IMG/VR virus record: IMGVR_UViG_3300026097_000805
Coordinates: 1 to 64,000 of that record
From: a virus
Strand: one strand, 5' to 3'
Length of the DNA: 64,000 bases
Shown: positions 2,539-39,689 of the stretch, piece after piece
Numbering within the stretch: position 1 is the stretch's first letter
How the letters are laid out: the number at the start of each line of letters is the position of its first letter
Translations under genes and position numbers: made by a program
The notes under the pieces: generated by a model
What the model was told of the DNA's origin: nothing
The model's database searches: none
What the model saw: the letters and a program-made list of their open reading frames with translations, nothing else

Positions 2539-3459
2539 ATGAAAAAATTTAAAGTAATTGACTATGACATCATCTACTTGAGTTATGATGAACCTAATGC
2601 AGAAAAAAATTATGCAGATTTGTGTAGCAAAGTACCATGGGCTAAACGTGTTCATGGTGTAAAAGGATCAGATGCTGCACACAAAGCTTGTGCAGAACTA
2701 AGTGAAACAGATAGATTCATTACTGTCGACGGTGATAATATTGTACACCCTGACTTTTTACAGCAAGAATTAGATTTTGAAGAACACACAGATCTAGAAA
2801 ATTCAGTTATTAGTTGGTGCGGAGTTAATATAATAAACGGGCTCATGTACGGTAATGGTGGGTTAAAGTGTTGGCCGAAAACTCATGTACTTAATATGCG
2901 GACACATGAGAATGCAGATTCTGACAATCCACATGCCCAGGTAGATTTTTGTTGGGATTTAAATTATATACAACAAAACAGCTGGTTTAGTTATGTACAT
3001 AATAATGAAACACCTCAACAAGCGTGGAGAGCAGGTTTTCGCGAAGGTGTAAAAATGGCACTAGATCAGGGTGTAAAACCTACAAAAGAAAATTTTCTTA
3101 ATGGGCATTGGAAAAACTTACATCGTCTTTGGATCTGGTTAATGATAGGCTCTGATGTCAAACACGGCCTTTGGGCAATATACGGTGCAAGACAAGGACT
3201 TTATATGACAATGTGCTCAGATTGGGATTATATAAACGTGCGAGATTTTGATTATCTCAACAACATGTGGAATAATGAAAAACATAAAGAAGATGGACTA
3301 CTAATTCAAATACAAGCACTAGGAAATGATCTCAAGGACGAGCTTGATATACCGATAGATGCTAATCCGTTATTACCCGACCAGAGTAAATTTTTTAAAA
3401 CTGTGTATCAAAATCCCAGTAGAAATCCTAATCAACAATTTATTATAGATCCAGAATGA
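2539..3459 (+). CDS. Glycosyltransferase-like protein, single domain
   Basis: A 306-residue protein with IIYLSYDEPNAEKNY near the N-terminus and ITVDGDNIVHPDF at about residues 61-73, where DGD takes the place of the GT-A DxD. It matches the C-terminal domain of the repeat protein at 13648-15273, which has ISYNEPNADANY, HGVKG and IVDGDAQI in the same order, so the two are homologues of different architecture. The likely role is glycan transfer. It overlaps the following radical-SAM gene by the ATGA junction. Confidence 0.6.
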   Translation: MKKFKVIDYDIIYLSYDEPNAEKNYADLCSKVPWAKRVHGVKGSDAAHKACAELSETDRFITVDGDNIVHPDFLQQELDFEEHTDLENSVISWCGVNIINGLMYGNGGLKCWPKTHVLNMRTHENADSDNPHAQVDFCWDLNYIQQNSWFSYVHNNETPQQAWRAGFREGVKMALDQGVKPTKENFLNGHWKNLHRLWIWLMIGSDVKHGLWAIYGARQGLYMTMCSDWDYINVRDFDYLNNMWNNEKHKEDGLLIQIQALGNDLKDELDIPIDANPLLPDQSKFFKTVYQNPSRNPNQQFIIDPE

Positions 3460-4874
3460 CAGATAAACAAAAAGGAGATGAGGTAAAGCTACTAAAGGGA
3501 AAGTACCAATCACAGTATTTTGAGAGTAGTAAAGACCTTTTACAAGGACTTAATAATGTTAGTCCTAGTTTCTGTTTGGCTAAGTGGTACAGTGTAAGTT
3601 TACATTTACCTACTGGCAAGACACACAGTTGCTATCACCCGCCTGCACATAATATTCCACTAGAAGAATTAAATATAACTCCGGATGCATTACATAATAC
3701 ACAGTATAAAAAACAACAACGTGCTAAAATGCTTAAAGGAGAACGACCTAAAGAGTGTGAGTTTTGTTGGGCATTAGAAGATCAAGGAAATATAAGTGAC
3801 CGTGCATATCGTAGTAAAGATGTATTTGAGCCTGGACTAATCGAAGCTGCACAAGTAGAAGAAAATCCTAAACCCAAATACTTAGAAGTAAACTTTAATC
3901 AAGCCTGTAATTTAAAGTGTGCATATTGTAGTCCACATCTGTCAACAGAGTGGCACAAAGAAGTTAAAAAACATGGTGCATACCATTTAGATGGATTTAA
4001 ACACAATGATCCTCTTTGGGTCGACAATTTAGGTATTAATAATGCTCCAGATAGTCCGTATGTGCAAGCGTTTTGGGAATGGTTTCCTACGGTATATCCT
4101 ACATTAAAAACATTTCGTATGACTGGTGGCGAGCCACTTATGGATAAAAACACATTTCGTGTGTTTGACTATATAAAAAATAATCCTAATAATAAATTGA
4201 ATTTGAGTATTACTAGTAATTGTAGTCCTCCTAAAGGTCAGTGGACTAAATTTATGACTAGTCTAAAAGAAATTACAGATAAAGATGCGATAGATCATTT
4301 CATGTTGTTTTGCAGTCTTGACAGTTGGGGGCCCCAGGCAGAATATATAAGACATGGATTAGACTTTGACGAATTATATAAGAATATTACGCAATATTTA
4401 AGTGAAAGCAAAAACCACAGCTTAACTTTTATTATAACGGCAAATCTGCTAAGTTTACCAGGTTGGTTAGATTATGTCAAAAACATTTTAAAATTGCGTA
4501 AAACTTTTAACACTAATCGACAATTGATCTGGTTTGATACACCTATGCTACATGATCCCAAATGGATGAGTATGAAATTAGCGACACCCGAACTGTTGAA
4601 GCCTTTACAAGACAGTATCGATTACATGGAAGAAAATAAAGAAACTATACATAACAGGTTCAAAGGATTTAAGGACTTTGAAGTAGATAAAGTCAGACGA
4701 CTGTATGAGTGGGCGTCAGAACCGTTAAATACCACACAAGAACTAACAGCAAAGAAGAATTTTGATTTGTTTTTTAAACAGCATGATATTCGTAGAGATA
4801 CTGATATACAAAAAACATTTCCTGAACTAATAACTTTCATAGAAGAATGTGAGGTATTATATAATGAGCGATAA
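3456..4874 (+). CDS. Radical-SAM protein, class A
   Basis: A 472-residue radical-SAM enzyme. The cluster-binding CNLKCAYC lies at residues 151-158, followed by the SAM-binding TGGEP. Ahead of the core is a Cys-rich segment with C40, C59 followed by YHP, and C101-x2-C104, which looks like a SPASM/twitch-like auxiliary-cluster domain moved to the N-terminus. Radical-SAM enzymes cleave SAM reductively to a 5'-deoxyadenosyl radical; the substrate here is unknown. Its closest sister is the next gene, which shares the CYHP variant where most class-A proteins have CC. Confidence 0.85.
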   Translation: MTDKQKGDEVKLLKGKYQSQYFESSKDLLQGLNNVSPSFCLAKWYSVSLHLPTGKTHSCYHPPAHNIPLEELNITPDALHNTQYKKQQRAKMLKGERPKECEFCWALEDQGNISDRAYRSKDVFEPGLIEAAQVEENPKPKYLEVNFNQACNLKCAYCSPHLSTEWHKEVKKHGAYHLDGFKHNDPLWVDNLGINNAPDSPYVQAFWEWFPTVYPTLKTFRMTGGEPLMDKNTFRVFDYIKNNPNNKLNLSITSNCSPPKGQWTKFMTSLKEITDKDAIDHFMLFCSLDSWGPQAEYIRHGLDFDELYKNITQYLSESKNHSLTFIITANLLSLPGWLDYVKNILKLRKTFNTNRQLIWFDTPMLHDPKWMSMKLATPELLKPLQDSIDYMEENKETIHNRFKGFKDFEVDKVRRLYEWASEPLNTTQELTAKKNFDLFFKQHDIRRDTDIQKTFPELITFIEECEVLYNER

Positions 4875-6273
4875 TTATATGAATCGTGTTAAAGAAACCC
4901 GAGACTCATTAAATGAAGTAGGTCCAGGGTTCTGTGCAATGAAATGGTTAAACGAAACACTTTACTTGCAAACAGGGGACAACCATAGTTGCTATCATCC
5001 ACGTCCTCATCATATTCCTTTGCAGGAAATAGAAGAAAATCCAAATGCATTGCACAATACTAAATTTAAAAAATCAGTGCGTAAAGAAATGCTCGAAGGT
5101 AAGCGTCCTGAAGAATGTTATTATTGTTGGAATGTAGAAGACTTAGACGGAGAACACTATTCTGATAGAATGTTTCATAGTGCAAGTAATTGGGTTTCAA
5201 AAGAAGATTTAAATCTTATAAAAAGATCTCATTGGAACGATAACATTAATCCAAGATATTTAGAATTAAGTTTTGGCAATGGCTGCAATTTTTCTTGCGG
5301 TTATTGTTGCCCGCAAGCAAGTAGTCTTTGGGTAGATGAAATTAAAAAATACGGAAATTATGATATATCTTATAATCAATATGGTATAGAATTTCTTAAT
5401 GGTAATTTTTATAATGACAAAGAATACAACCCTTACGTAGAAGCCTTTTGGAAATGGTGGCCTGATCTAGTTAAAGATCTTAAAATTTTGAGAATTACCG
5501 GAGGCGAACCTTTGATGAATTCTAATACGTTTAAAATGTTAGACATGCTAGATGAAACTCCTGCTCCGGATTTAGAAATCAATATGAATAGTAATCTAGG
5601 TGTAACTAATGCTCGTGTTAAAAAATTAAGTAATAAAATAAAGAAGTTAATAAAAGAAAATAAAATTAAAACATTTAAACTCTATACAAGCATTGACGGT
5701 TGGGGAGAGCAGGCTGAATATATGCGTAGAGGATTAAAATGCGATTTATGGGAGAAAAATCTTGATACGTTTATTACGATTACTGAGTCGCCTGTAAATA
5801 TTATGATCACATATAACATCTTAGCAGTAGCAAACTTTAGAGATTTACTTGTTAAAATACTAGAACTTAGAGAAAAATATAATTCTAAAGATAATAGTCA
5901 GCAAATGTTAGGATTTGATACACCGTATTTAAAAGAACCACCTCATTGGATGATTAATCTGCTTCCGGTTGACGAGTTTGGACATTACTTAGATAACGAT
6001 TTAAAGTTTATTAAAGAAAACCTAAGAAATAATGGTAATGATACATTTAAATTTAGTAAACACGAATATGAAAAATTTAAGCGTGTACGTGACTATTTTT
6101 ATCAAGGTGGACAAAAAATTACTTCTGAGTTAATTGAGAGAGGCAGAAAGGATTTTTATAAATTTTTTACTGAATATGATAAACGTAGTAATTTAGATTT
6201 CAAAAAAACCTTTCCTTTATATAAGAAGTTTATGAAAGATTGTGAAAGATTAGTAAATGAGTCTAAGAAATAA
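4864..6273 (+). CDS. Radical-SAM protein, class A, sister of upstream gene
   Basis: A 469-residue radical-SAM enzyme with CNFSCGYC at residues 141-148 and TGGEP downstream. The N-terminal Cys segment has C24, C43-YHP and C85-x2-C88. I chose the ATG at 4864 over an in-frame ATG 15 bases earlier because GAGG at 4851-4854 sits nine bases before it. It overlaps the upstream gene by 11 bases. Length, order of motifs and the CYHP variant make it a tandem paralogue of the 3456-4874 gene. Substrate unknown. Confidence 0.85.
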   Translation: MSDNYMNRVKETRDSLNEVGPGFCAMKWLNETLYLQTGDNHSCYHPRPHHIPLQEIEENPNALHNTKFKKSVRKEMLEGKRPEECYYCWNVEDLDGEHYSDRMFHSASNWVSKEDLNLIKRSHWNDNINPRYLELSFGNGCNFSCGYCCPQASSLWVDEIKKYGNYDISYNQYGIEFLNGNFYNDKEYNPYVEAFWKWWPDLVKDLKILRITGGEPLMNSNTFKMLDMLDETPAPDLEINMNSNLGVTNARVKKLSNKIKKLIKENKIKTFKLYTSIDGWGEQAEYMRRGLKCDLWEKNLDTFITITESPVNIMITYNILAVANFRDLLVKILELREKYNSKDNSQQMLGFDTPYLKEPPHWMINLLPVDEFGHYLDNDLKFIKENLRNNGNDTFKFSKHEYEKFKRVRDYFYQGGQKITSELIERGRKDFYKFFTEYDKRSNLDFKKTFPLYKKFMKDCERLVNESKK

Positions 6274-7441
6274 TAAAACATTTTGTGTATTACCTTGGAT
6301 TCATTTACATTCGAATCCTGATAGCGAAATTAGACCTTGTTGTATAGCAAAAACTGACCAGTATAAGTTTGGTTATTTAAACAACACCACAGTACAAGAA
6401 GCATGGAATAGTAAATCTTATATGCGTGTTCGCAAGAATATGTTAAAAGGAAAGCCTATTCAAGTTTGTGAAAATTGTTATGAGACTGAAAAATATGGTT
6501 CAAACAGTTTACGCAATAATATGAATGAAAAATGGTTAACTACAGATCTTGAATCTACTATACTAACAAATACAGATTCTAAAGGTAGATATAATAGTCA
6601 AGGTCTTTTATACTGGGACATTAGATACAGTAATGTTTGTAACTTTAAATGTCGAATGTGCGGCCCTGCACTTAGCACAAAATGGTACGAAGATGTAGAA
6701 GGATGGAATCATACATTAACTAATATATCCGATATTAAAAGCTGGTGCGATCAAAATAAAGAATATTTAAAAACTTTAAAAGAAATTTATTTTGCAGGCG
6801 GCGAACCTCTAGTTCAGAAGCAGCATTACGAATTTTTAGAATGGTGTATAAAAAATAACATTTATCCTAGTCTTCATTATCAATCAAATGGAAGTAAGTT
6901 AAAATACGGTAAATGGAATATATTTGAACTTTGGAATCATTTTCCAAATGTTGCTTTTAGTCTTAGTTTAGATGCGTTTGGTGCTCTTGGGGAATATATC
7001 AGAACTGGATATATTGATAATGTTGTTAAAGACAATATGAATAGAATACTAGATTTTATGGGAAGTAATCATAGTATTTTAATAAACAGTACATGGCAGT
7101 TATACAACTCTTATTATATGACTGAGTTTTTTGACGAAGTAGATACTTACAAATGGGTGTTAAATAATAATAATTATACACAATTATTAATTAATCCTGA
7201 ATATCTACAACCTAAAGTTTTACCTGCTGAGCTTAAAAAAACAGCAATAAAAAAAATAGAAACAAGTAAATGGTTTAATATATACCCTAATAAATTTGAG
7301 TCGGTGCTTAATAACCTTAAAGAAGAAAGTTCACAGTTACAATGGAAAAAATTTGTTAAATACTCTAAGAACTTAGATAATATTAGAAAAGAATCATTAG
7401 TTGATGTCTTTCCGGAATTAAGGAAATATTATGAATCTTAG
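6257..7441 (+). CDS. Radical-SAM protein, class A
   Basis: A 394-residue radical-SAM enzyme. The N-terminal segment reads FCVLPWIHL, then CC at residues 28-29, then WNS...R...ML and C71-x2-C74, the standard class-A layout. The radical-SAM cluster motif CNFKCRMC is at 128-135 and AGGEP follows. It overlaps the upstream gene by 17 bases and the downstream gene by 11. The GxxRPCC...CxxC pattern resembles SPASM/twitch auxiliary-cluster ligands, but placed before rather than after the core. No substrate can be inferred. Confidence 0.85.
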   Translation: MSLRNNKTFCVLPWIHLHSNPDSEIRPCCIAKTDQYKFGYLNNTTVQEAWNSKSYMRVRKNMLKGKPIQVCENCYETEKYGSNSLRNNMNEKWLTTDLESTILTNTDSKGRYNSQGLLYWDIRYSNVCNFKCRMCGPALSTKWYEDVEGWNHTLTNISDIKSWCDQNKEYLKTLKEIYFAGGEPLVQKQHYEFLEWCIKNNIYPSLHYQSNGSKLKYGKWNIFELWNHFPNVAFSLSLDAFGALGEYIRTGYIDNVVKDNMNRILDFMGSNHSILINSTWQLYNSYYMTEFFDEVDTYKWVLNNNNYTQLLINPEYLQPKVLPAELKKTAIKKIETSKWFNIYPNKFESVLNNLKEESSQLQWKKFVKYSKNLDNIRKESLVDVFPELRKYYES

Positions 7442-10598: not shown

Positions 10599-10599
10599 G

Positions 10600-11775
10600 T
10601 TGATCCACTTTTTATATCCTACCGATGATTTTAGTTTTGACATTTATAATAAGACAGAAACTACGTTTTCTTCTTCGGATGCTGAAGATTGCTGGTCAAT
10701 GGAATGGTTATTGACCCAAATAGGAATTCCGTATAAAAATATAACACAAGAAACTTTAGAAACATGTTATGTAAAATTTAATTTAAACTTTCCTACAGAA
10801 TATACTGATTTAGATAATATTCCAGATACTACATGGAAAAAAATAAAAAACCAACACAATGTATATTTGTTATTGTATCAGGCAACAGAAGCTACTCCAT
10901 TTTATTTTTGGAATTATAGATGGAGTATATTAAAAGATTTCTTACAATGTAAGAATATACCGCCACAAAAAGTTAAGTTTATTTGCGGAGATGTAGATGC
11001 TACTGCTAATCATAAAATAAATGTAGATGATTATTGGTCATTTGTAGATGTTATAGGAATAGATATTTTCGAGTTAGTACATAACTATAGACATTATCTT
11101 GATAGTAACCCTACAGATATTAGAAAAACTTTAAAGGGTTATTTGAAACAAAAAACTAAAAAGAACTTTTTATGCTTTAACAGACGTCCGCGACCTAATA
11201 AGCAGTCTTTAATTTTTTATCTTAAAAAATATAATCATTTTGATAAAGGTTTAGTCAGTAATCTTTGGGAGGAAGAAGACAAACTAATATCTAAAGAAGA
11301 GTTTGAAATTTATAATTTTGATAACTCTGATTATAATGAGTTAACGCCTCTAGTGCCTGTTCGAAATGAAATACAAGAAGGAAACTTTGTTGCAAATCAG
11401 TCATCACCGGCTGATCTATATAAAAAATCAAATTTTAGTCTAGTTAGTGAAACATTTACAGGTTCTACTGTTAGATTCATAACGGAAAAAACTTATAAGC
11501 CTATAATGATGGGACATCCTTTTCTAATACATGGTACTACAGGAACTTTAAGTTATTTACAGAGCCTAGGTTACGAAACTTTTCAAAACATTTTTGATGA
11601 AACTTATGATTTAGAAAAAGATCCTAAAAAACAACTAGAAAAAATTATTAAAAATTTAGATTGTAATTTTAAGTTAAGTGCCCTTACTATAGAAAAGATC
11701 AAACACAATCAAAATAATTTTCTTAAATTAAATACTAGAAACCGTATAAAAAATCAGCTAGAAGAATTTTTATAA
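10600..11775 (+). CDS. Putative glycosyltransferase, TTG start
   Basis: A 391-residue protein with a TTG start at 10600 preceded by AAAGG. The C-terminal half has ADLYKKSNFSLVSE and TEKTYKPIMMGHPF (from about residue 294), a pattern I associate with phage and marine bacterial glycosyltransferase-like proteins of GT-B/fucosyltransferase type. CFNRRPRPNKQS in the middle may bind phosphate. It ends a run of overlapping genes and is followed by the largest gap in the island. Sugar-transfer activity is inferred, not proven. Confidence 0.45.
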   Translation: MIHFLYPTDDFSFDIYNKTETTFSSSDAEDCWSMEWLLTQIGIPYKNITQETLETCYVKFNLNFPTEYTDLDNIPDTTWKKIKNQHNVYLLLYQATEATPFYFWNYRWSILKDFLQCKNIPPQKVKFICGDVDATANHKINVDDYWSFVDVIGIDIFELVHNYRHYLDSNPTDIRKTLKGYLKQKTKKNFLCFNRRPRPNKQSLIFYLKKYNHFDKGLVSNLWEEEDKLISKEEFEIYNFDNSDYNELTPLVPVRNEIQEGNFVANQSSPADLYKKSNFSLVSETFTGSTVRFITEKTYKPIMMGHPFLIHGTTGTLSYLQSLGYETFQNIFDETYDLEKDPKKQLEKIIKNLDCNFKLSALTIEKIKHNQNNFLKLNTRNRIKNQLEEFL

Positions 11776-11937: not shown

Positions 11938-12405
11938 ATGAAATTAGATTATCAAAAACTTGGTATTGTTGTCATGGATGTAGGCCTACCTCAAAATTCT
12001 TATAGATATAACGAAGAAAAATCCACAAATGATGCGTTTGTGTCTTATTTAAATCAACGATTACACGATCTTAAAAAACAAGGTGCTAAAATTATAGAAA
12101 TCAACTATATTTCTCTAGATAGTACACATCCATTGATAGACACAGAGTTTGATCTAAGGACTCTTAATTTGAAGGAACTTGAGGAGTACATAAAAAGAAG
12201 CGGAATTAAACATTTGATTTATACAGGGTTCCATTATCCTATCTGTACAAATGGTGAAAGAGAATTAAGTAGTTATAATTTAGAATCAAACAAAAATCTA
12301 GAGCAAGTTTCTATTGCTGTTCAGTTAACAAGATCTATAAGTAGAGACTACACTGTTCCTTTAGTAGATACGTATAAGTACGGAGTATGGCAGGTGATGT
12401 TATGA
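11938..12405 (+). CDS. Hypothetical protein, possibly isochorismatase-like
   Basis: A 155-residue protein. It opens with a hydrophobic strand ending in an aspartate (GIVVMDVG, D14) and later has LIYTGFHYPICT with C103, which fits the Asp...Cys order of isochorismatase-like cysteine hydrolases. The lysine of that triad is not obvious and the protein is short, so the call is tentative. It is the first gene after a TATAAATA box and overlaps the sugar dehydrogenase downstream by ATGA. Confidence 0.4.
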   Translation: MKLDYQKLGIVVMDVGLPQNSYRYNEEKSTNDAFVSYLNQRLHDLKKQGAKIIEINYISLDSTHPLIDTEFDLRTLNLKELEEYIKRSGIKHLIYTGFHYPICTNGERELSSYNLESNKNLEQVSIAVQLTRSISRDYTVPLVDTYKYGVWQVML

Positions 12406-13628: not shown

Positions 13629-13647
13629 AAGGTGCTATTATATAAAA

Positions 13648-15961: not shown

Positions 15962-15964
15962 AAA
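15924..15964 (+). repeat. Direct repeat copy 1 (methyltransferase tail and TTG start)
   Basis: This 41-base stretch matches 17273-17313 with a single mismatch. It covers the last codons of the methyltransferase-like gene, the GAGG ribosome site and the TTG start of the next radical-SAM gene. The repeat marks a tandem duplication of this gene junction. Confidence 0.9.
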
Positions 15965-17310: not shown

Positions 17311-17313
17311 AAA
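17273..17313 (+). repeat. Direct repeat copy 2 (methyltransferase tail and TTG start)
   Basis: Second copy of the 41-base junction at 15924-15964, one mismatch. It rebuilds the GAGG site and the TTG start for the duplicated radical-SAM gene at 17297. Confidence 0.9.
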
Positions 17314-19565: not shown

Positions 19566-19566
19566 C

Positions 19567-21706: not shown

Positions 21707-21721
21707 ATAAACTACGCACTT

Positions 21722-21729: not shown

Positions 21730-21733
21730 CTAT

Positions 21734-28728: not shown

Positions 28729-29288
28729 AAATATTAATAGCAGGAAATCCAGATTACGGATTAGCAAAATCTATAAAAACTATCTATCCTGATGCGGAGT
28801 TTTGTAGTAGAAGTCACAGCGATAGGGACTTAACACAATATCAAACGCAGAGAGATTTTGCTGAAAAAAGTTTAGACTATGATGTGGTAATTAGCGTTAG
28901 TTGCCTTTGGAAACATCATCAAACTAACTTAGTACAAGAAGTTGCTAAAAAATGGTTTGAGCATAAAAAAGACGGATACCTTATAGTCGTAGGCAGCAGT
29001 GCCGACACGCCTGTGAAAGGCACAGCGTGGATGTATCCTGCTGAAAAGAAAGCACTTAGAGCATATTGTAGACAAATCAGTCAAGCCAGTGCCGGAGAAA
29101 ATGATAATCCAATTAAGATGACTTATCTCAGTCCCGGTAATCTACACACTCCCAAACAAGATGAAAAAATGCCCAACACACCTAAACTGGATACAGACTA
29201 TGTAGCAGGCGTTATACAGTGGTTGATTGAACAACCAAAAGATGTTAACATTAGTGAGCTATGTCTAGATCGGAAAATAACAATATGA
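28725..29288 (+). CDS. SDR-like Rossmann protein
   Basis: A 187-residue protein with a short nucleotide-binding start (KILIAGNPDYGLAKSI), the strand VVGSS and the probable catalytic YPAEK (YxxxK). The glycine-rich loop is weaker than in classical SDR proteins. It is related in size and layout to the 24453 protein. Position right after a class-B radical-SAM gene suggests reduction or epimerisation of its product. Confidence 0.5.
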   Translation: MKILIAGNPDYGLAKSIKTIYPDAEFCSRSHSDRDLTQYQTQRDFAEKSLDYDVVISVSCLWKHHQTNLVQEVAKKWFEHKKDGYLIVVGSSADTPVKGTAWMYPAEKKALRAYCRQISQASAGENDNPIKMTYLSPGNLHTPKQDEKMPNTPKLDTDYVAGVIQWLIEQPKDVNISELCLDRKITI

Positions 29289-30022
29289 TTTATAATGAAC
29301 AAGATTTTTTAAATAAATGGGGGAATAAAAAAATAAATTTTTTTGATTATAGAAAAGATTTAGAAGCAGTATATAAACATGAAAATCCTGTTGTTTTTTT
29401 AGAACATAAAACAAGTTTGCCCTGGTTTAGTTATCCCCTTCCGGATGTTGATATCAAGGAAATTCAAAATGAATGTTTTGAAATTTTCCGTAATTCAGAA
29501 TATGAGTCTACGCACATTTCAGGACACAACCCCGATGGATGGAGAATTTATCACTTATACAAGTCTGAAAGTGGAGGTAGAGATAAACAAAGACATAAAG
29601 GTATAGAATACGAAAATTATTCTTTTGTGTACGATAAAAAATATCCTGCGCTTAAGGATTGTATCGAAAAATATAACTGTATAAACACCGGTGCTTGGAT
29701 AAGTGCCAACCCCCCCGGAAGTAAAATTCCTATACATTTTGATAAAGGAAATCCAAATAAACAACTAACAAAAAAAAGATTATCTGTATTCTATCCTAAA
29801 GATTGTTTTTTGATAATGGAAGAAGGTGGTATAGTAGATTTTTATCATCAAGAGTTAGTCTGCTTTAATCATAAAAAACTTCATGGAGTTTGGAATAATT
29901 CACAAGAATGGAAGATAGATTTATCTATAGTGGGCTTCCCACAAAATAATGTCTTAAGAAGTAAAGTCAACAATACAATAAAAAATAAGATAGAGCAATT
30001 ATTGGATAATAATGTATCATAG
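29285..30022 (+). CDS. Asp/Asn beta-hydroxylase-like 2OG/Fe(II) protein
   Basis: A 245-residue protein. The C-terminal half has GSKIPIHFDKG (H151, D153) and NHKKLHGVWN (H200), the order expected of the aspartyl/asparaginyl beta-hydroxylase branch of the 2-oxoglutarate oxygenases. The ATG at 29285 overlaps the previous stop as ATGA, so I prefer it to the upstream in-frame ATG. It overlaps the next class-B gene by 11 bases. Substrate unknown. Confidence 0.55.
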   Translation: MIYNEQDFLNKWGNKKINFFDYRKDLEAVYKHENPVVFLEHKTSLPWFSYPLPDVDIKEIQNECFEIFRNSEYESTHISGHNPDGWRIYHLYKSESGGRDKQRHKGIEYENYSFVYDKKYPALKDCIEKYNCINTGAWISANPPGSKIPIHFDKGNPNKQLTKKRLSVFYPKDCFLIMEEGGIVDFYHQELVCFNHKKLHGVWNNSQEWKIDLSIVGFPQNNVLRSKVNNTIKNKIEQLLDNNVS

Positions 30023-31124
30023 TTTTGACAGTGTTAGAGACCTACATGTAGAAATTACAAATCGTTGTAATGCGGCCTGTCCTATGTGTGCTAGGAATGA
30101 CTTTGGCGGCAAAACCAAAGAGGATCTAGTATTAGATGAATGGACACGGGAAGACGTTGATCGTATTTTTGATAGACAGTTTCCAGATCTAGAAAATGTT
30201 ATGTTCTGCGGCACCCACGGTGATCCTGTTGTTGCTAAAGAAAGTTTATACGCTATAGAACGGATCAAAGAAACCACAGATGCCACGGTAGAGTTTTATT
30301 CAAATGCTAGCCTACGCACACCCAACTGGTGGGCAGAACTAGGCAAACTCATGCAGGATAAAAAACCTGACCATGAACACTATAGAAAAAACGACTTAGC
30401 TATTTTTAGCATAGACGGTCTAGCCGACACAAATCATCTGTATAGAAGAAACACAGATTTTGAAAAGATTATAGCAAACGCACAAGCATATCTTGCCGCA
30501 GGTGGTATTGCTCGTTGGGACTACATTGTATTCAAACACAACGAACATCAAGTCGAAGCCGCAGAAGCACTAGCCAAGAAGATGGGCTTCAAACAATTTC
30601 GTGTTCGTAAAACCAGTCGGTTTGATTATTCACCAGACGGTCCTGATAAATGGCGTGTTAAAAACAAGCAAGGCGATATCGAATATTATCTAGAACCACC
30701 CGGTGAAGAATATCGCAATCCGCAGAGTAAGAAAATCCAAGAACTTACACAACAATACGGCAGCATAGAAAAGTATTACAATGTTGCTCCTATCGATTGC
30801 CTATATAAAAATGAGTTTAAGAGATTGTATGTAAACGCATATGCTCAGGTGTTTCCTTGTTGCTATATTTCTAATGATATCTATCCCAATAAAAATAAAA
30901 TAATGGATGACACTCACGAAAAGCTGTTCAAAAAATACGGCACAGAGTTCAATAGCCTTAGAACAAATTCTTGGAACGATATTTTAAATCATCCTTGGTT
31001 TGCTAGCGAGCTAGAAGCCAGTTGGGATAAAGATCTAGAGGGTGGTAAATTAATGAGATGTGCTAGAACCTGTGGGAAAGGATACTCACCTATCAAAAGT
31101 CAAAGTACGGATACGACTCTTTAA
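30012..31124 (+). CDS. Radical-SAM/SPASM protein, class B
   Basis: A 370-residue radical-SAM enzyme: CNAACPMC at residues 19-26, IDGLADTNHLYRRN, HNEHQ, then SPASM-like PCCY and CARTCG. It is the last gene of a + strand run. Its 3' end overlaps the end of the inverted class-A gene by 32 bases, so both coding frames share this DNA on opposite strands. No terminator separates them. Confidence 0.85.
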   Translation: MYHSFDSVRDLHVEITNRCNAACPMCARNDFGGKTKEDLVLDEWTREDVDRIFDRQFPDLENVMFCGTHGDPVVAKESLYAIERIKETTDATVEFYSNASLRTPNWWAELGKLMQDKKPDHEHYRKNDLAIFSIDGLADTNHLYRRNTDFEKIIANAQAYLAAGGIARWDYIVFKHNEHQVEAAEALAKKMGFKQFRVRKTSRFDYSPDGPDKWRVKNKQGDIEYYLEPPGEEYRNPQSKKIQELTQQYGSIEKYYNVAPIDCLYKNEFKRLYVNAYAQVFPCCYISNDIYPNKNKIMDDTHEKLFKKYGTEFNSLRTNSWNDILNHPWFASELEASWDKDLEGGKLMRCARTCGKGYSPIKSQSTDTTL

Positions 31125-32214
31125 AACTCTGTCCGCGACTGCTGTCTAGAAACTCTGTGTGACGTTTAAACTCCGGTAGTTTACTACTGTTGTCTTCACT
31201 GTTCATGTAGTTGGCAATGTATTCACAGCTCTTGCGTGTGAGGTCGTTTTTAAAATCATAGTTGGCAAACTTTTCGCTTACTAGTTGTTTAGCAGATTGT
31301 GGCAGCACAGTCACGCTCAAGTGTTCTGGATATGCCAAGTGCGTGGCATTATGTCGTATGTTCATGTCGTCCAGCCATTCCAATGTTTCGGGTAGGTGAT
31401 ATACATTGAGTAGTGTCACGGTGGGCCTAGCAATCACATGTAGATCAATTTCTTTTTGTAGCTCAACAAATCTCTGGATATTAGCAACAACTTCTTCTTG
31501 CTTTGTTCCGTGACGCAGATACTCATTTTCTTGTGGTACAATGCTGTCTAAACTAATCGCTAGTTCAATATATTCAAACTTACGCCAGCGATCTACTATG
31601 TGTTGTTTTGGGTATACAGTACAGTTGGTGCTGTAGTTTAGATATATGTGATGAGCATGTCCTTCGTCAATAATGTAATCCAACAGTCGCCAATGATCTG
31701 GAGTAATAAGAGGTTCGCCGCCTGTTATCTTTAGATGTTTGAGATTGGGCACATGTGGAAATACACTTTCAACGGGCATTTTTGTCCGTGCTGTTTGTGT
31801 AAATGTTTTGCCGTAGTATTCAAATTCTTCTGCGAATATTTTGTGACTGTAGCGACTGTCGCACATTCTACAGGCAAGATTACAATCGTTAGATATAGCA
31901 AGTTCCAACCATTCTATTCTAGGAGCATCTTTTGCTATAGTTTCTATCCCTAGTTTAGCATGTTGATTATATCTTTGTCGCAGACTTTTCTTGCCTGAAT
32001 CTTCCTCTTGCCAACAGCGTGTACAGCCAGGATGCCGCTCACCGGCAATCATTGATTTTCTTACAGCAGACATTTTTTCGTTGTTAAAATTAAGATCAAT
32101 GTCGCCTTCTAACTGTCCGAGATTGCCTTGAAAACGGCAACAGGGTTTTACTCTCCCAGAACCATCAATAAACTGATGATTCCAAATCATCGAACATAAG
32201 GTATCTTTTGCCAT
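31093..32214 (-). CDS. Radical-SAM protein, class A, inverted gene
   Basis: A 373-residue radical-SAM enzyme and the only - strand gene in the first 42.6 kb. Core: CNLACRMC at residues 111-118 and TGGEP. N-terminal domain: C7, CC at 25-26 and C64-x2-C67. I start it at the ATG at 32214, because the frame further upstream lacks family sequence and lies over the next + strand gene. A TATAAATA box lies just ahead. The 3' end overlaps the class-B gene by 32 bases. Confidence 0.85.
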   Translation of the reverse strand: MAKDTLCSMIWNHQFIDGSGRVKPCCRFQGNLGQLEGDIDLNFNNEKMSAVRKSMIAGERHPGCTRCWQEEDSGKKSLRQRYNQHAKLGIETIAKDAPRIEWLELAISNDCNLACRMCDSRYSHKIFAEEFEYYGKTFTQTARTKMPVESVFPHVPNLKHLKITGGEPLITPDHWRLLDYIIDEGHAHHIYLNYSTNCTVYPKQHIVDRWRKFEYIELAISLDSIVPQENEYLRHGTKQEEVVANIQRFVELQKEIDLHVIARPTVTLLNVYHLPETLEWLDDMNIRHNATHLAYPEHLSVTVLPQSAKQLVSEKFANYDFKNDLTRKSCEYIANYMNSEDNSSKLPEFKRHTEFLDSSRGQSFKESYPYFDF

Positions 32215-32219
32215 AAATA

Positions 32220-32227
32220 TATTTATA
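32220..32227 (-). promoter_or_regulatory. Late-type promoter TATAAATA for inverted gene
   Basis: On the - strand TATAAATA ends five bases before the ATG at 32214, giving a leaderless or nearly leaderless transcript. On the + strand the overlapping CATAAATA at 32212-32219 is one mismatch from the same box and could serve the gene at 32254, so this may be a compact divergent promoter. Confidence 0.55.
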
Positions 32228-32253
32228 TACGCACTTAATAATGAGATATCACA

Positions 32254-33453
32254 TTGAAACCTGTAGCAAGTTATTTTAAGCACAATCCAACCGGGGCATT
32301 TAGTGTTGATTGGTACATAGGGAAACGCTGTAATTTCAGTTGTTCTTACTGTGTTGACTATCTGCATGACAATCATTCCCCTCATGTTCCCTATGAAAAC
32401 ATGCGGGCCCTTGCTGACACTATCATAGACGCCCACGGCATAAATGTTTTTTGGAGCCTCACGGGCGGTGAACCCACTATCAATCCAGATTTCATGAAAC
32501 TGTGTAAGTATATCAAACATGAGCGGGGCGCAAAACATGTTAGTCTAACCACCAACGGCAGCAGAACAGCAGCCTATCTCAAAGAGCTATATCAGTATTT
32601 AGACGGTATAACACTTAGCTTTCACTTTGAACACATGAAACATCGTATTGATGAATTCATAGACAAATGTATTCAACTAGAAGATTGGCGCAGGCAGTGG
32701 AATGCGGAGCAGGAAGCAAGCAACAACAAGTTTCCAGACTGGGACACAGGTTATATCAAAAAAACACTGATACTTAGATTCATGGTTTATCCAGGACAGT
32801 TTGAAAATGTTGAACGCATGGAACAGGCATTTCGCGATCACGGCATCACTAACATAGAACACCGTTATATTCGTCCGCCAGGCGGCAACTCTAACGAATT
32901 ATTGCCTGATAAGAAACTAGATTTTAAAACCAACAATGATACAGAATCAAAATACAAACTGTTGAGCAATGCTGACCAGACAGATATCAAAGCTATCGAA
33001 ACCAGAGAGAAAAAGTTTTATCGAGAAGGTGAACAAGAAAAAATCAAACAATTGTACGAAAACAAGATAACTCCAGACAAACGCAAATTAAAGTTTTGGT
33101 TCGACAACGACGGTGATCTAGTTGATCAAGATTTTCATTACAATGAACTAAATTTTGACAAGAAAAACAACTATGAAGGTTGGTTATGCTGGGCTGGGGT
33201 AAAACATTTGAAAGTGACACCCACAGGAGATATCTATATAGGAAGTTGTCATGTGGGAGGCAAGCGTGGTAATATATATGATAGCGGCAGCATTGATTTG
33301 CCAACTGAACCGATTCGTTGCCCTAAATGGCGCTGTACTGATAACCTAGATCTCAAAGTACCAAAGATTCGAGATTGGGAATATTACCATCTAGTTAAAG
33401 ACATGATAGAGTGGAAAGATTCTACGGATTCAATAGATATTGACAAACTATAA
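32254..33453 (+). CDS. Compact radical-SAM protein with Cys-rich tail
   Basis: A 399-residue radical-SAM enzyme that fits neither class A nor class B. CNFSCSYC is at residues 26-33, then TGGEP and a LSFHFEH strand. The C-terminus has WLCWAG, IGSCHVGG and CPKWRC, cysteines that could bind an auxiliary cluster. The start is a TTG at 32254, since an in-frame stop lies shortly before it and the core begins soon after. It is related to the next gene. Confidence 0.8.
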   Translation: MKPVASYFKHNPTGAFSVDWYIGKRCNFSCSYCVDYLHDNHSPHVPYENMRALADTIIDAHGINVFWSLTGGEPTINPDFMKLCKYIKHERGAKHVSLTTNGSRTAAYLKELYQYLDGITLSFHFEHMKHRIDEFIDKCIQLEDWRRQWNAEQEASNNKFPDWDTGYIKKTLILRFMVYPGQFENVERMEQAFRDHGITNIEHRYIRPPGGNSNELLPDKKLDFKTNNDTESKYKLLSNADQTDIKAIETREKKFYREGEQEKIKQLYENKITPDKRKLKFWFDNDGDLVDQDFHYNELNFDKKNNYEGWLCWAGVKHLKVTPTGDIYIGSCHVGGKRGNIYDSGSIDLPTEPIRCPKWRCTDNLDLKVPKIRDWEYYHLVKDMIEWKDSTDSIDIDKL

Positions 33454-33474
33454 AGAATATGTTATATTAATAGT

Positions 33475-34590
33475 ATGAATGAAAATTTAAAATGGTCCAA
33501 CTATGACTTCACTAAAATACCACTTGATGACATTGTCAGTGTTGGTCAACGCACTTTGCTTTATCGTGATCTTTTTACTGTATCGTGGTTGCTTGGAAGA
33601 TTCTGTAATTACAGATGCTCCTACTGTTGGCCATATGCCCGTTCCGACCGTAAAGACCATAGACCTACCGAGCTCTGCTTGCGCACAGTGGATGAAATTA
33701 AACGTCAAGCCAGACTCAACGGCTTCAATTCTTTCCACTTCTCCCTGTCAGGAGGAGAACCTACTTTCCATCCTGGCTACTTCGACATTTTAAAACATCT
33801 AGCTCAAGATATCGAAAACACAAACTACACCAGTATTCACATGACTTCTAACTGTAGTCGTAAAATGAAATGGTTTGAAGAGTATGTAGAGATAGCAAAG
33901 TCCTTTCACAGAGCTAGTATTACAGCAAGTCTACATACCGAACATGTAGACAACAAAGAAAAAATGCAGGAGTTTGCGGATAAACTTATTCTCTGTCAGG
34001 AAAATGATGTACAAATTACTATTAACATGGTCATGGTCCCAGAATGGTTTGATCGAGATTGGGAAAACGCTCTTTTCTTCCACGAGCAAGGAATAAACGT
34101 CACCCTTAAACCACAGAGCGATCCTACAGCGTCCAGAGTCGTAGAGGGCTACACAGAAGAACAGCTACAAACACTCTACAACGGAATGCCACAGCGAGGA
34201 TATACTGACGTAAAACGCAAGTGGGCAAATAGACCCAAACCAAACTTTCAAATACCCAAAGGAATAATGGGAAAAAATGATGCTAGTGTTCCGTGGAACA
34301 TGCAGGTTGAGCTTGAAGACTCTCAAGGAGAAAAATGGTATATGGATCAAGCAGAACGATTCAATGCCTTTAATTTTAACAAGTTTACTGACTGGAGTTG
34401 TAATGCTGGATATCAAGGCATAATTATAAGAGAGCCTGACGGAAATATCAAAAGGTCCTATAGCTGTCACGACGAACCCTTGGGTCATATTGAGACTGGA
34501 TTTACTTTGTTTAAAGAACCCAAGAAATGTATAACACCTAGTTGTGTAAGCAGTGCCGATAGCAAAATACCAAAGAGAAAATATGGGTAA
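33475..34590 (+). CDS. Compact radical-SAM protein with Cys-rich tail
   Basis: A 371-residue relative of the preceding gene. CNYRCSYC is at residues 44-51, then SGGEP and ITASLHTEH. The C-terminal cysteine set is WSCNAG, YSCHDEP and CITPSC. The pair probably came from a duplication and acts on related substrates. It overlaps the following class-A gene by 8 bases. Confidence 0.8.
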   Translation: MNENLKWSNYDFTKIPLDDIVSVGQRTLLYRDLFTVSWLLGRFCNYRCSYCWPYARSDRKDHRPTELCLRTVDEIKRQARLNGFNSFHFSLSGGEPTFHPGYFDILKHLAQDIENTNYTSIHMTSNCSRKMKWFEEYVEIAKSFHRASITASLHTEHVDNKEKMQEFADKLILCQENDVQITINMVMVPEWFDRDWENALFFHEQGINVTLKPQSDPTASRVVEGYTEEQLQTLYNGMPQRGYTDVKRKWANRPKPNFQIPKGIMGKNDASVPWNMQVELEDSQGEKWYMDQAERFNAFNFNKFTDWSCNAGYQGIIIREPDGNIKRSYSCHDEPLGHIETGFTLFKEPKKCITPSCVSSADSKIPKRKYG

Positions 34591-35776: not shown

Positions 35777-37205
35777 TCTAGTAGCAATTCCTCCCCTTGT
35801 TCTAAATGGACCTCCTATTGGAATTGCCTTACTCAAAGCACTTGCTGAAGAAAATGGCTATAAGTGCCAATGCTTTAATCCGAGTATTGACGTCTGGGAA
35901 AAACTAGAAAAGAATGAGAAAAGAACTTGGCCATATACACGCTTTACAAAAGAGTTTGAAGAAAAATACGATGTAGATGCTTGGGTAGCAGAGATAGTTG
36001 ATAACGCTTTGGCTCCTAATCCAAAATTCATAGGACTGTCATCGCATACCTGGAGCAGTGAATATTTTTTATTGAAAATTTCAAAACGATTCAAAGAAGT
36101 TCGTCCTGACCTAAAACTAGTATTAGGCGGTGCCGCAGCCATGGAACTTTTTGATACTGTGAGAAAACACAATGATATAGATTATATTGTGGTAGGCGAT
36201 GGCGAAAAAGCATTTTTAAATTGTTTGGAAGGCAAATTTGATTTTGAAGGACTTAACACAAAGGTTTCTCATTCTCTAAGTCCGGAAGAATTTAATAATT
36301 TACCATATCCAGATTTTAGTGATTTAAGGGTAGATTGGCACAAAGCAAAAAACCCTAAAGAAAACAGAATATATCTCATAGGCAGCAGAGGTTGTGTGTA
36401 TAACTGTAGTTTTTGTAATGTGCCTACAATGATGAAATATCGTTTCAAAGACGGAGCAAAATTTGCTCATGAAATACGCCACATGCAGAATCTATACACG
36501 CCTACCAATATTGAATTTGGCGACAGCTTAATTAATGGAAGTCTTAGAGAATATAAAAAACTTATATATACGCTAGCAGAATTAAACAAACAAGATCCTG
36601 TTAACAAACCAAAGATAGTCAGTTTCTATAGAATTAGACCAGAAGCACAAAGTCCTGAAGAAGACTTCAAAGCCGCAGCTGAAGCAGGATTTTACAGATT
36701 TAAAATAGGTGTGGAAAGCGGAAGCGATCAAGTTAGAAGTCACATAGGTAAACAAGAAACCAACGAGGACATAGAATACACCCTTAGAATGATGAAGAAG
36801 TATGGCATCAACGCTAACTTATTAATTATTGTTGGATACCCTACCGAAACAGAAAAAGATTTCCAAGAAACACTCGACATGCTTCAGATGATGGTGGATA
36901 CAGGGTTAGACAGTGTTGTTGACAGAGCAGTTGTAAACGAACTATATATCAGCACTGGTACACGCATAAGTGAGCAGATAGATGAGTTGGGCATTAGAGA
37001 TGCCTATGGCAGCGCAGAAGAAAAAATGAGTAGACCGTGGAGTGTGACTCTGCCTAACGGTGAAATCATTGACGAGGAAGTGCGAGAACGCAGACTACAC
37101 ACTGTGCTAGACTTTATTGAAAACAAGTTTCAAAATGCGCAAAACCTCATGGTTTTTAGCGGCAAGGAGGACAGCAGCCGCAACAGGGAAGGTGACAAGA
37201 CCTAA
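35763..37205 (+). CDS. B12-binding-type radical-SAM protein
   Basis: A 480-residue protein of the cobalamin-dependent radical-SAM layout. The N-terminal 190 residues hold a Rossmann-like domain with IGLSSHTW, VLGGAAA and VVGDGEKAF, typical of B12-binding regions. The cluster motif CVYNCSFC follows at 211-218, and IGVESGSD and GYPTETEKDF match the HemN/elongator-like core. Such enzymes often do radical methylation or ring rearrangement. The ATG at 35763 is preferred over an in-frame TTG just before it. Confidence 0.8.
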   Translation: MIDCSLVAIPPLVLNGPPIGIALLKALAEENGYKCQCFNPSIDVWEKLEKNEKRTWPYTRFTKEFEEKYDVDAWVAEIVDNALAPNPKFIGLSSHTWSSEYFLLKISKRFKEVRPDLKLVLGGAAAMELFDTVRKHNDIDYIVVGDGEKAFLNCLEGKFDFEGLNTKVSHSLSPEEFNNLPYPDFSDLRVDWHKAKNPKENRIYLIGSRGCVYNCSFCNVPTMMKYRFKDGAKFAHEIRHMQNLYTPTNIEFGDSLINGSLREYKKLIYTLAELNKQDPVNKPKIVSFYRIRPEAQSPEEDFKAAAEAGFYRFKIGVESGSDQVRSHIGKQETNEDIEYTLRMMKKYGINANLLIIVGYPTETEKDFQETLDMLQMMVDTGLDSVVDRAVVNELYISTGTRISEQIDELGIRDAYGSAEEKMSRPWSVTLPNGEIIDEEVRERRLHTVLDFIENKFQNAQNLMVFSGKEDSSRNREGDKT

Positions 37206-38107
37206 TGTGGCCTTACAGCGCAGATCAAGTTGAAAAACTACATCTTGAAACTGGCACCTTTTGTAATCTAGAGTGTCCAGGTTGTCTTCGCACATTTGAT
37301 AACACCGCACAATCGCACCTAAATACTAATTTTCTTACATACAAAAAAGTATCCACATGGTTTCAACCCAATGTATTACCGTCAGTAAACAAAGTAATAT
37401 ATAGCGGGCAGATTGATGAGCCTGCTGCTAATCCAGAAATAAAAGAAATCACAGAATATTTTCTTGACAATTGGAGCCTTAAAGTTCTAATCATGCAGAG
37501 TCACGGAAGCATACGAACCGAAAACTTTTGGACCGAACTAGGCAATCTTAGTAGAGAGTCAGGTCATATTTTTAGAGTAGAATTTAGCATAGACGGATTG
37601 GAAGACTCAAATCATATCTACAGACAAGGCAGTAATTGGCACAGAATTATAAACAATGTTAACGCATACATACAAGCAGGCGGCTATGCCAGCTGGAAGT
37701 TTATTAAATTCAAACACAATGAACATCAAGTGGATCAAGCACTAGAACTTAGTAAGAAGCTAGGCTTTAAACAGTTTGTGACCGTTGACAGTGCTAGGCC
37801 TTCTAGCAAGGAAATAAATACACCTTTTGATTTTAAATCCAACGACAGTGTTAAATGTAGAGCATTTGACGACAAATGGTTGTATGTTCACTATGATGGT
37901 GTTTTACAGCCTTGTTGCTACTTTGGATATGACGAACGCAGTGACGATCCAGAAGATAATTTAAACCACAACACCATAGATAATTATTTTAGTAATAGTA
38001 AATTTTTACATGATCTACAAGATGGTTGGGATACTCCTAGCTGTAATCCAAGATGCTATACCAAATGTAAATTAAATTTACGAGATAACAGGACGGTATA
38101 CGAATGA
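37205..38107 (+). CDS. Radical-SAM/SPASM protein, class B, short form
   Basis: A 300-residue radical-SAM enzyme, the shortest of class B: CNLECPGC at residues 20-27, IDGLEDSNHIYRQG, HNEHQ, and at the C-terminus QPCCY plus CNPRCYTKC. It lacks the Lys-rich linker of the longer members. TAATG joins it to the B12-type gene, and ATGA joins it to the oxygenase-like gene behind it, giving another class-B/oxygenase couplet. Confidence 0.84.
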   Translation: MWPYSADQVEKLHLETGTFCNLECPGCLRTFDNTAQSHLNTNFLTYKKVSTWFQPNVLPSVNKVIYSGQIDEPAANPEIKEITEYFLDNWSLKVLIMQSHGSIRTENFWTELGNLSRESGHIFRVEFSIDGLEDSNHIYRQGSNWHRIINNVNAYIQAGGYASWKFIKFKHNEHQVDQALELSKKLGFKQFVTVDSARPSSKEINTPFDFKSNDSVKCRAFDDKWLYVHYDGVLQPCCYFGYDERSDDPEDNLNHNTIDNYFSNSKFLHDLQDGWDTPSCNPRCYTKCKLNLRDNRTVYE

Positions 38108-38649
38108 TAGAAATCTATGACAACTTTTTGGATGAAAAAGTCTTTAAACAAGTTCAACAAGAAGTTCTTGGTTTGAGCTATGAGCCTATACAACACGGCG
38201 ACGATGTAGCATATAAACTAGACAGCGGTACAATTTATAAAACCAAACACAAACAGTGGTCAGATAACCCAACAGCACTACAGGTGTTTTTTGATGCTAT
38301 GGCACAACAAGATTTTCTTCCATCTGATGTATTTTCTATTATGGTTCATGTTTACGAACCAGGAGCAGAAATCAGTTGGCACAGAGATTATGCCTCACTT
38401 GCTTCATATTCTTTTTATATACACGACGAATGGCGCAGTGAGTGGGGAGGACAGTTAATGGTCACAGATTCTTCAGACCGCCACGGAAATAACGGCAATG
38501 TTTTTGACCACAGGCAAGATGTTATGACACCCGGTGTAGGACAATACTATGAACCTATTCCTAATAGACTTGTGATTATAAAAGACTGTCTACACAAAGT
38601 AAACCGTTGTAATCACAGACGCACTAGCCTTACAGGATTTTTCAAATAA
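38104..38649 (+). CDS. 2-oxoglutarate/Fe(II) oxygenase (P4H-like)
   Basis: A 181-residue protein with a clear prolyl-4-hydroxylase-type core: WHRD (H93, D95), WGGQLMV, H164 in CLHKVN, and R173 in RTSLTGFF as the 2-oxoglutarate ligand. It is the most confident oxygenase call in the island. It overlaps the neighbours on both sides by 4 bases and 1 base. The hydroxylated substrate is unknown. Confidence 0.75.
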   Translation: MIEIYDNFLDEKVFKQVQQEVLGLSYEPIQHGDDVAYKLDSGTIYKTKHKQWSDNPTALQVFFDAMAQQDFLPSDVFSIMVHVYEPGAEISWHRDYASLASYSFYIHDEWRSEWGGQLMVTDSSDRHGNNGNVFDHRQDVMTPGVGQYYEPIPNRLVIIKDCLHKVNRCNHRRTSLTGFFK

Positions 38650-39689
38650 TGGCTTACTGCATGGCACCTTTCAGAAATGTCTACATCAACAACGGCAAAG
38701 CACGGCCCTGCTGTTGGTATGAACGCAGAGAACTCACTAACAAAGTAGACAATCTTATTGAAGTTGTTGATGTATTCAACAGCAATGAATTTGATGCGAT
38801 AAGAAACAACCCCAGCAATAAACCCAGCGGATGTTGGAAGTGTCAGATGCATGAAGACAATGGCGGCGTTAGTCATAGGATGCTATGGAATAAGCGCGAA
38901 AAGGATAACGGAGATGTCAAGCTGACTGATTTAGATATCTACATGGGCAATCTTTGTAATCTTGCTTGTGTGACCTGTAGCAGTCACAACAGTTCTAAAT
39001 GGATCGCTGAAGAAAAACAAATTTATGGATCCAGCTTCAAAGACAAGCAAGACGACATAGACATCAATCTCAACTGGGAGTTGGTAAAGGATTTAAAACG
39101 AATCAAACTAGCTGGAGGGGAAGTCACACTCATGCCCCATCACGAACCATTTTTACAACAGTTGATTGACTTTGATGTGGCAAAAAATATCACCCTAGTT
39201 TATATTGTCAACAGCACACAAGATCCTAGAAAGTTTGAAAATTTGTGGAGCAAATTTAAAAACATAGAATTTATAGTAAGCCTAGACGGTGTTGGCGAGC
39301 TCAGTGACTATATTAGATATCACAGTGATTGGAATACCGTAAGCACAAATATTATTCGCGCCACAGAAATGGGCATTCAAATCAGTGCCAACAGTGTGGT
39401 TAACATTTTGAATGTATACCATTTGCCCGAAATACTGGAGTGGTGGAAACACAAAGGCAGTGTGCTATGGCGCATTTTAGATTATCCGCAACCATTGAGC
39501 ATTGTCAATCTCAAGCCCGAACACAAGGATCTTGTGGCAGAGAGATTGAAAGACTATGATGAGCTTGCGCATGTGATAGAACACATGTACAAAGAACAAG
39601 GCGACTGGAATAGCTTTGTAGATTGGATCACTCCTATAGATAACAACAGAAAGTATAACTGGCAACAGTTTAATCCACAATATGTCTGA
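38649..39689 (+). CDS. Radical-SAM protein, class A, short form
   Basis: A 346-residue radical-SAM enzyme. N-terminal domain: C4, CC at 21-22, C62-x2-C65. Core: CNLACVTC at residues 103-110, AGGEV and VSLDGVGELSDYIRYH. It is the last radical-SAM gene of the array on the + strand. It overlaps the following oxygenase-like gene by 8 bases. Confidence 0.84.
   Translation: MAYCMAPFRNVYINNGKARPCCWYERRELTNKVDNLIEVVDVFNSNEFDAIRNNPSNKPSGCWKCQMHEDNGGVSHRMLWNKREKDNGDVKLTDLDIYMGNLCNLACVTCSSHNSSKWIAEEKQIYGSSFKDKQDDIDINLNWELVKDLKRIKLAGGEVTLMPHHEPFLQQLIDFDVAKNITLVYIVNSTQDPRKFENLWSKFKNIEFIVSLDGVGELSDYIRYHSDWNTVSTNIIRATEMGIQISANSVVNILNVYHLPEILEWWKHKGSVLWRILDYPQPLSIVNLKPEHKDLVAERLKDYDELAHVIEHMYKEQGDWNSFVDWITPIDNNRKYNWQQFNPQYV

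Follow-up and report, generated by a model that had tools for sequence, protein, structure and literature searches.

The window analysed here comprises bases 1-64,000 of the linear, 179,647-base viral record IMGVR_UViG_3300026097_000805 (IMG/VR) and contains a dense array of radical S-adenosylmethionine (rSAM) genes at positions 3456-39689. A preliminary description, made from the letters alone, had counted 22 such genes with one CxxxCxxC motif each; all 22 are present, and a profile search matches every one of them to PF04055 at E≤1e-3. All look intact, with complete motifs and with genes that overlap or abut, and coding sequence covers 98.9% of the array, leaving 392 of its 36,234 bases uncovered. 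On the contig past 42 kb, CxxxCxxC is absent from every open reading frame (ORF) of at least 100 amino acids, which argues that the cluster did not arise by chance. A search of the whole record recovered the same 22 genes and a 23rd match (51271-51696) outside the array. This match belongs to a divergent QueE-like protein (51169-52065, minus strand), in whose motif (CNFRCMNF) phenylalanine replaces the third cysteine of CxxxCxxC and a further cysteine follows downstream (TGCDTYAS).

The genes of the island and its right border are given below; GT stands for glycosyltransferase, 2OG for 2-oxoglutarate, SDR for short-chain dehydrogenase/reductase and GNAT for GCN5-related N-acetyltransferase, and single letters are our names for gene families, with N and S denoting N-twitch and SPASM rSAM genes.

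309-1148 and 1135-1965, plus: two adjacent GT-like genes (g g), start of the cassette; family in 31 contigs, conserved order g g. G; no Pfam match, putatively GT8-like from DxD motifs
2539-3459, plus: G, GT-A-fold glycosyltransferase; AlphaFold2 pLDDT 92.4, best PDB matches GT-A transferases
3456-4874, plus: N-twitch rSAM; NF033640, 312 bits
4849-6273, plus: N-twitch rSAM; PF04055 and twitch cysteine set
6257-7441, plus: N-twitch rSAM; NF033640, 347 bits
7431-8603, plus: N-twitch rSAM; NF033640, 309 bits
8600-9820, plus: C-terminal SPASM/twitch rSAM; PF04055, C-terminal cysteine set
10600-11775, plus: u, putative GT-B-type glycosyltransferase; family in 18 contigs, recurs beside D; no Pfam or PDB match
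12387-13628, plus: D, UDP-glucose/GDP-mannose dehydrogenase; PF03721, PF00984; family in 14 contigs
13648-15273, plus: G-type glycosyltransferase with degenerate repeats; same hidden Markov model family as 2539
15260-15961, plus: M, class I methyltransferase fold; AlphaFold2 pLDDT 91.6, Foldseek E ~1e-8 to methyltransferases
15948-17177, plus: N-twitch rSAM, tandem pair with 17297; proteins 53% identical
17178-17296, plus: recombination scar with S-gene and M-gene remnants; DNA matches within the array
17297-18499, plus: N-twitch rSAM; PF04055, twitch cysteine set
18492-19565, plus: S, C-terminal SPASM rSAM, core; 52-75% identical in other phage arrays, up to 81%
19567-20139, plus: putative small 2OG-oxygenase-like gene following an S gene; paralogue of 21137, no Pfam match
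20136-21137, plus: C-terminal SPASM rSAM; PF04055, C-terminal cysteine set
21137-21706, plus: putative small 2OG-oxygenase-like gene following an S gene; paralogue of 19567, no Pfam match
21734-23131, plus: N-twitch rSAM, core; 60-80% identical in other phage arrays
23128-24456, plus: N-twitch rSAM; PF04055, twitch cysteine set
24453-25028, plus: e, NAD-dependent SDR/epimerase-like; same family as 28725
25018-26265, plus: N-twitch rSAM; NF033640, 297 bits
26262-27638, plus: N-twitch rSAM; PF04055, twitch cysteine set
27625-28728, plus: C-terminal SPASM rSAM; PF04055, C-terminal cysteine set
28725-29288, plus: e, SDR-like; weak PF00106, family in 24 contigs
29261-30022, plus: Asp/Arg hydroxylase-family 2OG oxygenase; PF05118
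30012-31124, plus: C-terminal SPASM rSAM; PF04055, C-terminal cysteine set
31093-32211, minus: N-twitch rSAM, sole inverted member; NF033640, 325 bits
32254-33453, plus: rSAM with C-terminal cysteine set ("compact"); PF04055, cysteines 312, 332, 356 and 361
33475-34590, plus: rSAM with C-terminal cysteine set ("compact"), core; 70-84% identical in other phage arrays
34553-35776, plus: N-twitch rSAM; NF033640, 212 bits
35760-37205, plus: B12-binding rSAM; PF02310 and PF04055, best NCBIfam models far below cut-off
37205-38107, plus: C-terminal SPASM rSAM; PF04055, C-terminal cysteine set
38104-38649, plus: 2OG-Fe(II) oxygenase; PF13640
38649-39689, plus: N-twitch rSAM; NF033640, 254 bits
39682-42685, plus: operon tail of 2OG oxygenases, aminotransferase, GNAT and kinase-like genes; PF00155, PF13508, PF05118, other assignments putative
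42682-44163, minus: tail-fibre-like gene with Mtd_N, first gene of the right flank; PF18454, E 1.3e-11; flank order kept in other array contigs

The classes proposed in the preliminary description largely hold. In all 13 genes said to have a Cys-rich N-terminal domain, the cysteine ligands of both clusters, among them the four N-terminal twitch cysteines, are invariant. Seven of the 13 were scored individually against NF033640 (N_Twi_rSAM; curated cut-off 170 bits), and all exceeded the cut-off at 212-347 bits; the remaining six have all four invariant twitch cysteines. The cut-off was not reached by the SPASM-type gene at 8600 (60 bits) or the "compact" gene at 33475 (45 bits). A conserved C-terminal cysteine set (SPASM/twitch) was found in all six genes of the C-terminal type, and the single B12-type gene has a PF02310 B12-binding domain. 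Some details need amending. The GGE segment described for most members is mostly replaced by GDP or GEI in the six SPASM-type genes, and the two genes called compact are indeed rSAM genes but probably carry an auxiliary cluster, because each also has four C-terminal cysteines. The start of the minus-strand gene, listed at 31093-32538, is most likely near 32211. Twelve of the 22 proteins are weakly similar to the prokaryotic viperin model, which brought up the idea of viperin-like rSAMs making modified nucleotides for use against competitors or host defences. This is extremely unlikely, as the best NF038283 score is 52 bits against a cut-off of 180 and the extra twitch/SPASM clusters are foreign to viperins.

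The array belongs to a recurring arrangement. A SPASM-family pattern scan of viral sequences returned at least 568 viral loci, and neighbour clustering and gene order in dozens of contigs revealed a stereotyped cassette, "g g. G. u D G M S N N N". It opens with two GT-like genes and one for a small protein, followed by G, in some cases an rSAM gene, u, UDP-glucose dehydrogenase, G, M, S and a run of N-type rSAM genes. This recurrence of the same partners in the same order bears out the earlier suggestion of a dedicated multi-gene system, as opposed to single auxiliary genes. Among 91 rSAM-bearing viral contigs, many of them short fragments, the G family is present in 65 and the M family in 72, and five proteins are G-M fusions. 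Whole contigs G012, G001, G037 and G024 have 23, 20, 18 and 16 rSAM domains, respectively. Profile searches with G and M yielded no useful match among PDB sequences, and we used structure prediction instead: confident AlphaFold models (pLDDT ~92) and Foldseek comparisons indicate a GT-A fold with a conserved DxD motif for G and a class I methyltransferase fold for M. The G-type protein at 13648-15273 has several degenerate repeats of its own domain upstream, and such proteins reach 1,522 amino acids in other arrays.

Conservation within the cassette is uneven: across phages it is mostly high for the S gene at 18492, the N gene at 21734, the gene at 33475, D, G and M (core rSAMs 52-84% identical), whereas most payload rSAMs of the window find matches of only 25-50% identity in any one relative. 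This conserved core with a variable rSAM payload may be compared to glycan loci with fixed ends. On the left, the island is bordered by a conserved gene (1-312), and on the right by a block, several genes of which are 75-86% identical in G037, that starts with the tail-fibre-like gene adjoining the array. The Mtd_N domain of that gene is the N-terminal domain of the major tropism determinant, and the gene probably helps in host recognition. The island therefore shows the features of a hypervariable host-recognition island of T4-like phages, namely a fixed position between conserved genes, variable content, an adjacent tail-fibre gene and glycosyltransferases. Its G+C content (~0.28-0.40 across the array) lies below that of most of the remaining window (0.36-0.43).

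The family B DNA polymerase of the contig, which matches 2,616 phage records, supports the earlier placement of the array in a phage. Among isolates, its nearest kin are in the jumbo phages Phosso and Atu_ph07 (45-49% identity); relatives are encoded on nearly 600 IMG/VR stretches, the best 80 being 89-95% identical, and one lies on the 275-kb contig G037. Judged by this gene, the window derives from a common or abundant, uncultured marine lineage of jumbo type within the T4 superfamily. Since polymerase kin extend to 275 kb, the contig probably covers only part of a genome. Moraphages (PMC12619734) were considered as the lineage and rejected; rSAMs are not mentioned in that paper. Among 50,697 phage records, there was no direct DNA match to the array and no relative of G at E 1e-5; M had one distant relative (Pelagibacter phage Mosig), N-type similarity was seen in two Vibrio phages, and weak SPASM similarity in four records.

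With two exceptions, each rSAM of the array has nearer relatives outside the array than within it. The exceptions are the 15948/17297 pair and the 38649 protein, whose matches are about equally distant. In a 288-sequence tree, the 13 N-type members are dispersed through viral and bacterial sequences, with viral ones as neighbours in most cases. Because the closest matches lie outside the array and the N-type members scatter, the array reads as an old, exchanged assortment of divergent paralogues and not as one recent expansion. Phage-specific local expansion, one of two origins raised in the preliminary description, is thus rejected except for the one recent rSAM pair (15948/17297) and the pair of S-plus-oxygenase units. 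The other, simple repeated capture from hosts, does not fit because most nearest relatives are in other phages. Traces of recombination remain at 17178-17296, where 78 bp are 94.9% identical to 18820-18897 (an S-gene remnant) and 52 bp are 84.6% identical to 15900-15951 (the end of M), and 15900-17186 aligns with 17249-18508 at 65%. It follows that an M-N-S block was duplicated in place and its middle lost. The rSAM copies of the duplicated block are far more diverged than the S remnant, which suggests recombination with a different phage.

Related arrays also occur in bacterial chromosomes. Since divergence within the N-twitch alignment precluded a pattern scan, we scanned with the SPASM alignment, so that our bacterial sample is biased towards genomes that also hold SPASM relatives. 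The 16 bacterial genomes reached in this way have 4-42 N-twitch rSAMs each, with the highest numbers in Bdellovibrionales; in the Bdellovibrionota sample, strong members were found in 41 of 144 genomes, with per-genome counts that are lower bounds. One 917-kb bacterial contig has about 13 N-twitch genes in 30 kb. Neighbours of the bacterial arrays include GT2 transferases, methyltransferases, a DegT aminotransferase and Asp/Arg hydroxylases. The Bdellovibrionota arrays share the N and S families with the window, and sometimes the G-M pair, but their strands are mixed, they form several dispersed islands and they lack the "g g. G u D G M" cassette. Discovery of the array as an ordinary bacterial locus, which the preliminary description had named as grounds against its proposal, was therefore partly borne out; its other such ground, failure of the profile searches, was not (22 of 22 matched). 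In a tree of M, several bacterial copies are basal and most phage copies fall into a few large groups, which is compatible with few transfers between bacteria and phages, in either direction. One further sequence, NZHE01000012.1 (loci L176, L205, L301 and L302), was binned as a Rickettsiales metagenome-assembled genome and has the phage cassette gene order and an M gene near-identical to that of an IMG/VR contig; it is probably a misbinned virus and was set aside as viral.

These observations lead us to propose, with a probability of about 0.5, that the array is a hypervariable island of soluble glycan-tailoring enzymes whose targets are virion proteins or precursors of the host surface, and that it makes up the variable core of a larger host-interaction region in a marine phage of jumbo type within the T4 superfamily. 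Its conserved neighbours in phages are sugar enzymes (glycosyltransferases, UDP-glucose dehydrogenase, SDR/epimerase-like proteins, aminotransferase and GNAT), and partly so in bacteria. The glycosyltransferases, the dehydrogenase and the SDR/epimerase-like enzymes would supply and join sugars in the cytosol. M, the 2OG oxygenases, the aminotransferase, the acetyltransferase and, above all, some 20 rSAM enzymes of differing specificity could then act on C-H bonds of the sugars, or of the acceptor that bears them, by dehydration, epimerisation, oxidation or C-methylation, and a swap of payload between phages would change the product. No multi-pass membrane protein is encoded among the array genes, only five of 802 neighbouring ORFs in viral arrays have at least three hydrophobic spans, and the array contains no flippase, polymerase, Wzx/Wzy or ABC exporter. 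The locus alone can therefore not make and export a polymer, which would imply either a soluble acceptor or export by the host. The acceptor could be a virion or receptor-binding protein of the phage, or an envelope precursor exported by the host; we slightly favour the former over O-antigen remodelling because no membrane step is encoded and a tropism-type gene is adjacent.

Several points weigh against a glycan product. The locus alone has neither Wzx/Wzy nor an exporter and so cannot produce a complete surface polysaccharide, none of its members has a close relative of characterised biochemistry, and G is only weakly similar to Pfam GT2 and has low Foldseek TM-scores (0.25-0.36). Many characterised SPASM/twitch rSAMs act on peptides and, to our knowledge, 22 tailoring enzymes exceed the need of any known glycan.

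The enzymes could also mature a ribosomal product, one sense of the maturation pathway suggested in the preliminary description, with the rSAMs, methyltransferase, oxygenases and glycosyltransferases acting on a small ribosomally synthesised and post-translationally modified peptide (RiPP) or on a tail or fibre protein. SPASM/twitch rSAMs are commonly peptide modifiers, some proteins are weakly similar to the PapB, mycofactocin and StsB maturases, and the B12 member is nearest to RiPP C-methyltransferases (103 of the 282 bits needed), a combination with oxygenase and methyltransferase that recalls proteusin pathways. We nevertheless regard maturation as unlikely, and a peptide RiPP cluster in particular was rejected: the few non-coding bases leave no precursor-sized gene (the two larger gaps have no plausible short ORF), Pfam scans of the window genes found no RiPP recognition domain, and no NCBIfam maturase model passed its cut-off in the genes scanned individually. 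UDP-glucose dehydrogenase and several glycosyltransferases would also be unexplained in a simple RiPP pathway. The adjacent tail-fibre gene speaks for maturation, and the acceptor could be a large phage protein.

Phage glycosyltransferases often act on DNA, and the array might produce a hypermodified base, or DNA with sugars attached, as protection from the nucleases of the host. A QueE-like rSAM is encoded on the same contig, and PP-loop/QueC-like proteins occur in other arrays. The QueE-like gene is outside the array, however, and Pfam scans revealed no nucleotide-base transferase or DNA-binding domain among the array genes. Nucleic-acid modification also predicts neither a hypervariable island beside a tail-fibre gene nor chromosomal arrays in bacteria, and we judge it very improbable.

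The glycan-tailoring reading has precedents in phages. Pelagimyophage host-recognition clusters combine glycosyltransferases with rSAM cassettes and have been read as O-antigen remodelling (PMC7029224), and mycobacteriophages are known to glycosylate their virions with enzymes of their own (Freeman et al. 2023, as cited in PMC12619734). Like the window, pelagimyophages have a hypervariable region with tail fibres, lipopolysaccharide-type glycosyltransferases and rSAM cassettes, and Mosig carries an M homologue and an S-like rSAM gene in its host-recognition region, but they have one to few rSAMs (two PF04055 matches in Mosig) instead of 22. The T4-related Campylobacter phages CP220 and CPt10 have 11-12 rSAMs per genome (11 domains in our recount of CP220) and an interchangeable module of five rSAMs, which together with nucleotide-sugar-transferase genes forms a cluster of ~10 kb that differs between near-identical phages (PMC2853527). 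Their rSAMs are half as many, spread out and only weakly matched by the SPASM and N-twitch profiles of the window, and no G or M homologue was found in the 30.5-kb CP220 stretch tested. The marine T4-like genome TARA_ERS488813_N000010 has 12 rSAM genes and Fe-S assembly genes, including an A-type carrier as on our contig (PMC5332604); it was compared by its published description, which gives no array layout. Vibrio phage K566 (OZ196521) has five N-twitch-type rSAMs in ~20 kb, but the 37-kb stretch tested contains no homologue of G or M.

The array is thus not unique, given the Bdellovibrionota arrays of the same families and the rSAM-rich phage clusters published since 2010 (PMC2853527, PMC5332604, PMC7029224). 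Within the open-access literature, what seems new is its density, the conserved G-M-S-N core with an exchangeable payload and the sharing with predatory bacteria; the last two appear to be undescribed. What had been a puzzle of single genomes since 2010, the presence of a dozen rSAMs in some T4-like phages, becomes a recurring, testable system: four gene families form a conserved core, the enzyme payload varies, the position next to a tropism-type gene is fixed, and predatory bacteria carry chromosomal relatives. The arrays also offer a large pool of radical enzymes that is still unexplored. As a tentative and rather speculative extension, jumbo-type phages and predatory Bdellovibrionota might share a diversity-generating chemistry built on the G-M-SPASM-N-twitch core, in which up to about 20 swappable cytosolic radical enzymes would furnish proteins of the virion or cell surface with heavily modified conjugates of a hitherto unknown class and alter recognition as phase-variable glycans do.

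The same contig encodes an A-type Fe-S carrier, an NfuA-like NifU domain, ferredoxin, rubrerythrin, peroxiredoxin and alternative oxidase. These proteins could serve to supply and shield Fe-S enzymes. Under a reading published for the Campylobacter phages (PMC2853527) and the TARA genome (PMC5332604), the array would consist of auxiliary metabolic genes that boost the metabolism of the host and draw on such an Fe-S supply. This is improbable here, since the rSAMs scanned match no metabolic equivalog above cut-off and the payload is exchanged, not conserved. A strict link to Fe-S supply was rejected as well, because the A-type carrier occurs on 10 of 26 viral contigs, and the 243-kb contig G012 lacks it despite its 23 rSAMs. 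In whole-contig numbering, the alternative oxidase, peroxiredoxin, rubrerythrin, A-type carrier, ferredoxin and NifU-domain genes are located at 177270-177860, 135351-136378, 105605-105961, 87935-88294 and 163928-164305.

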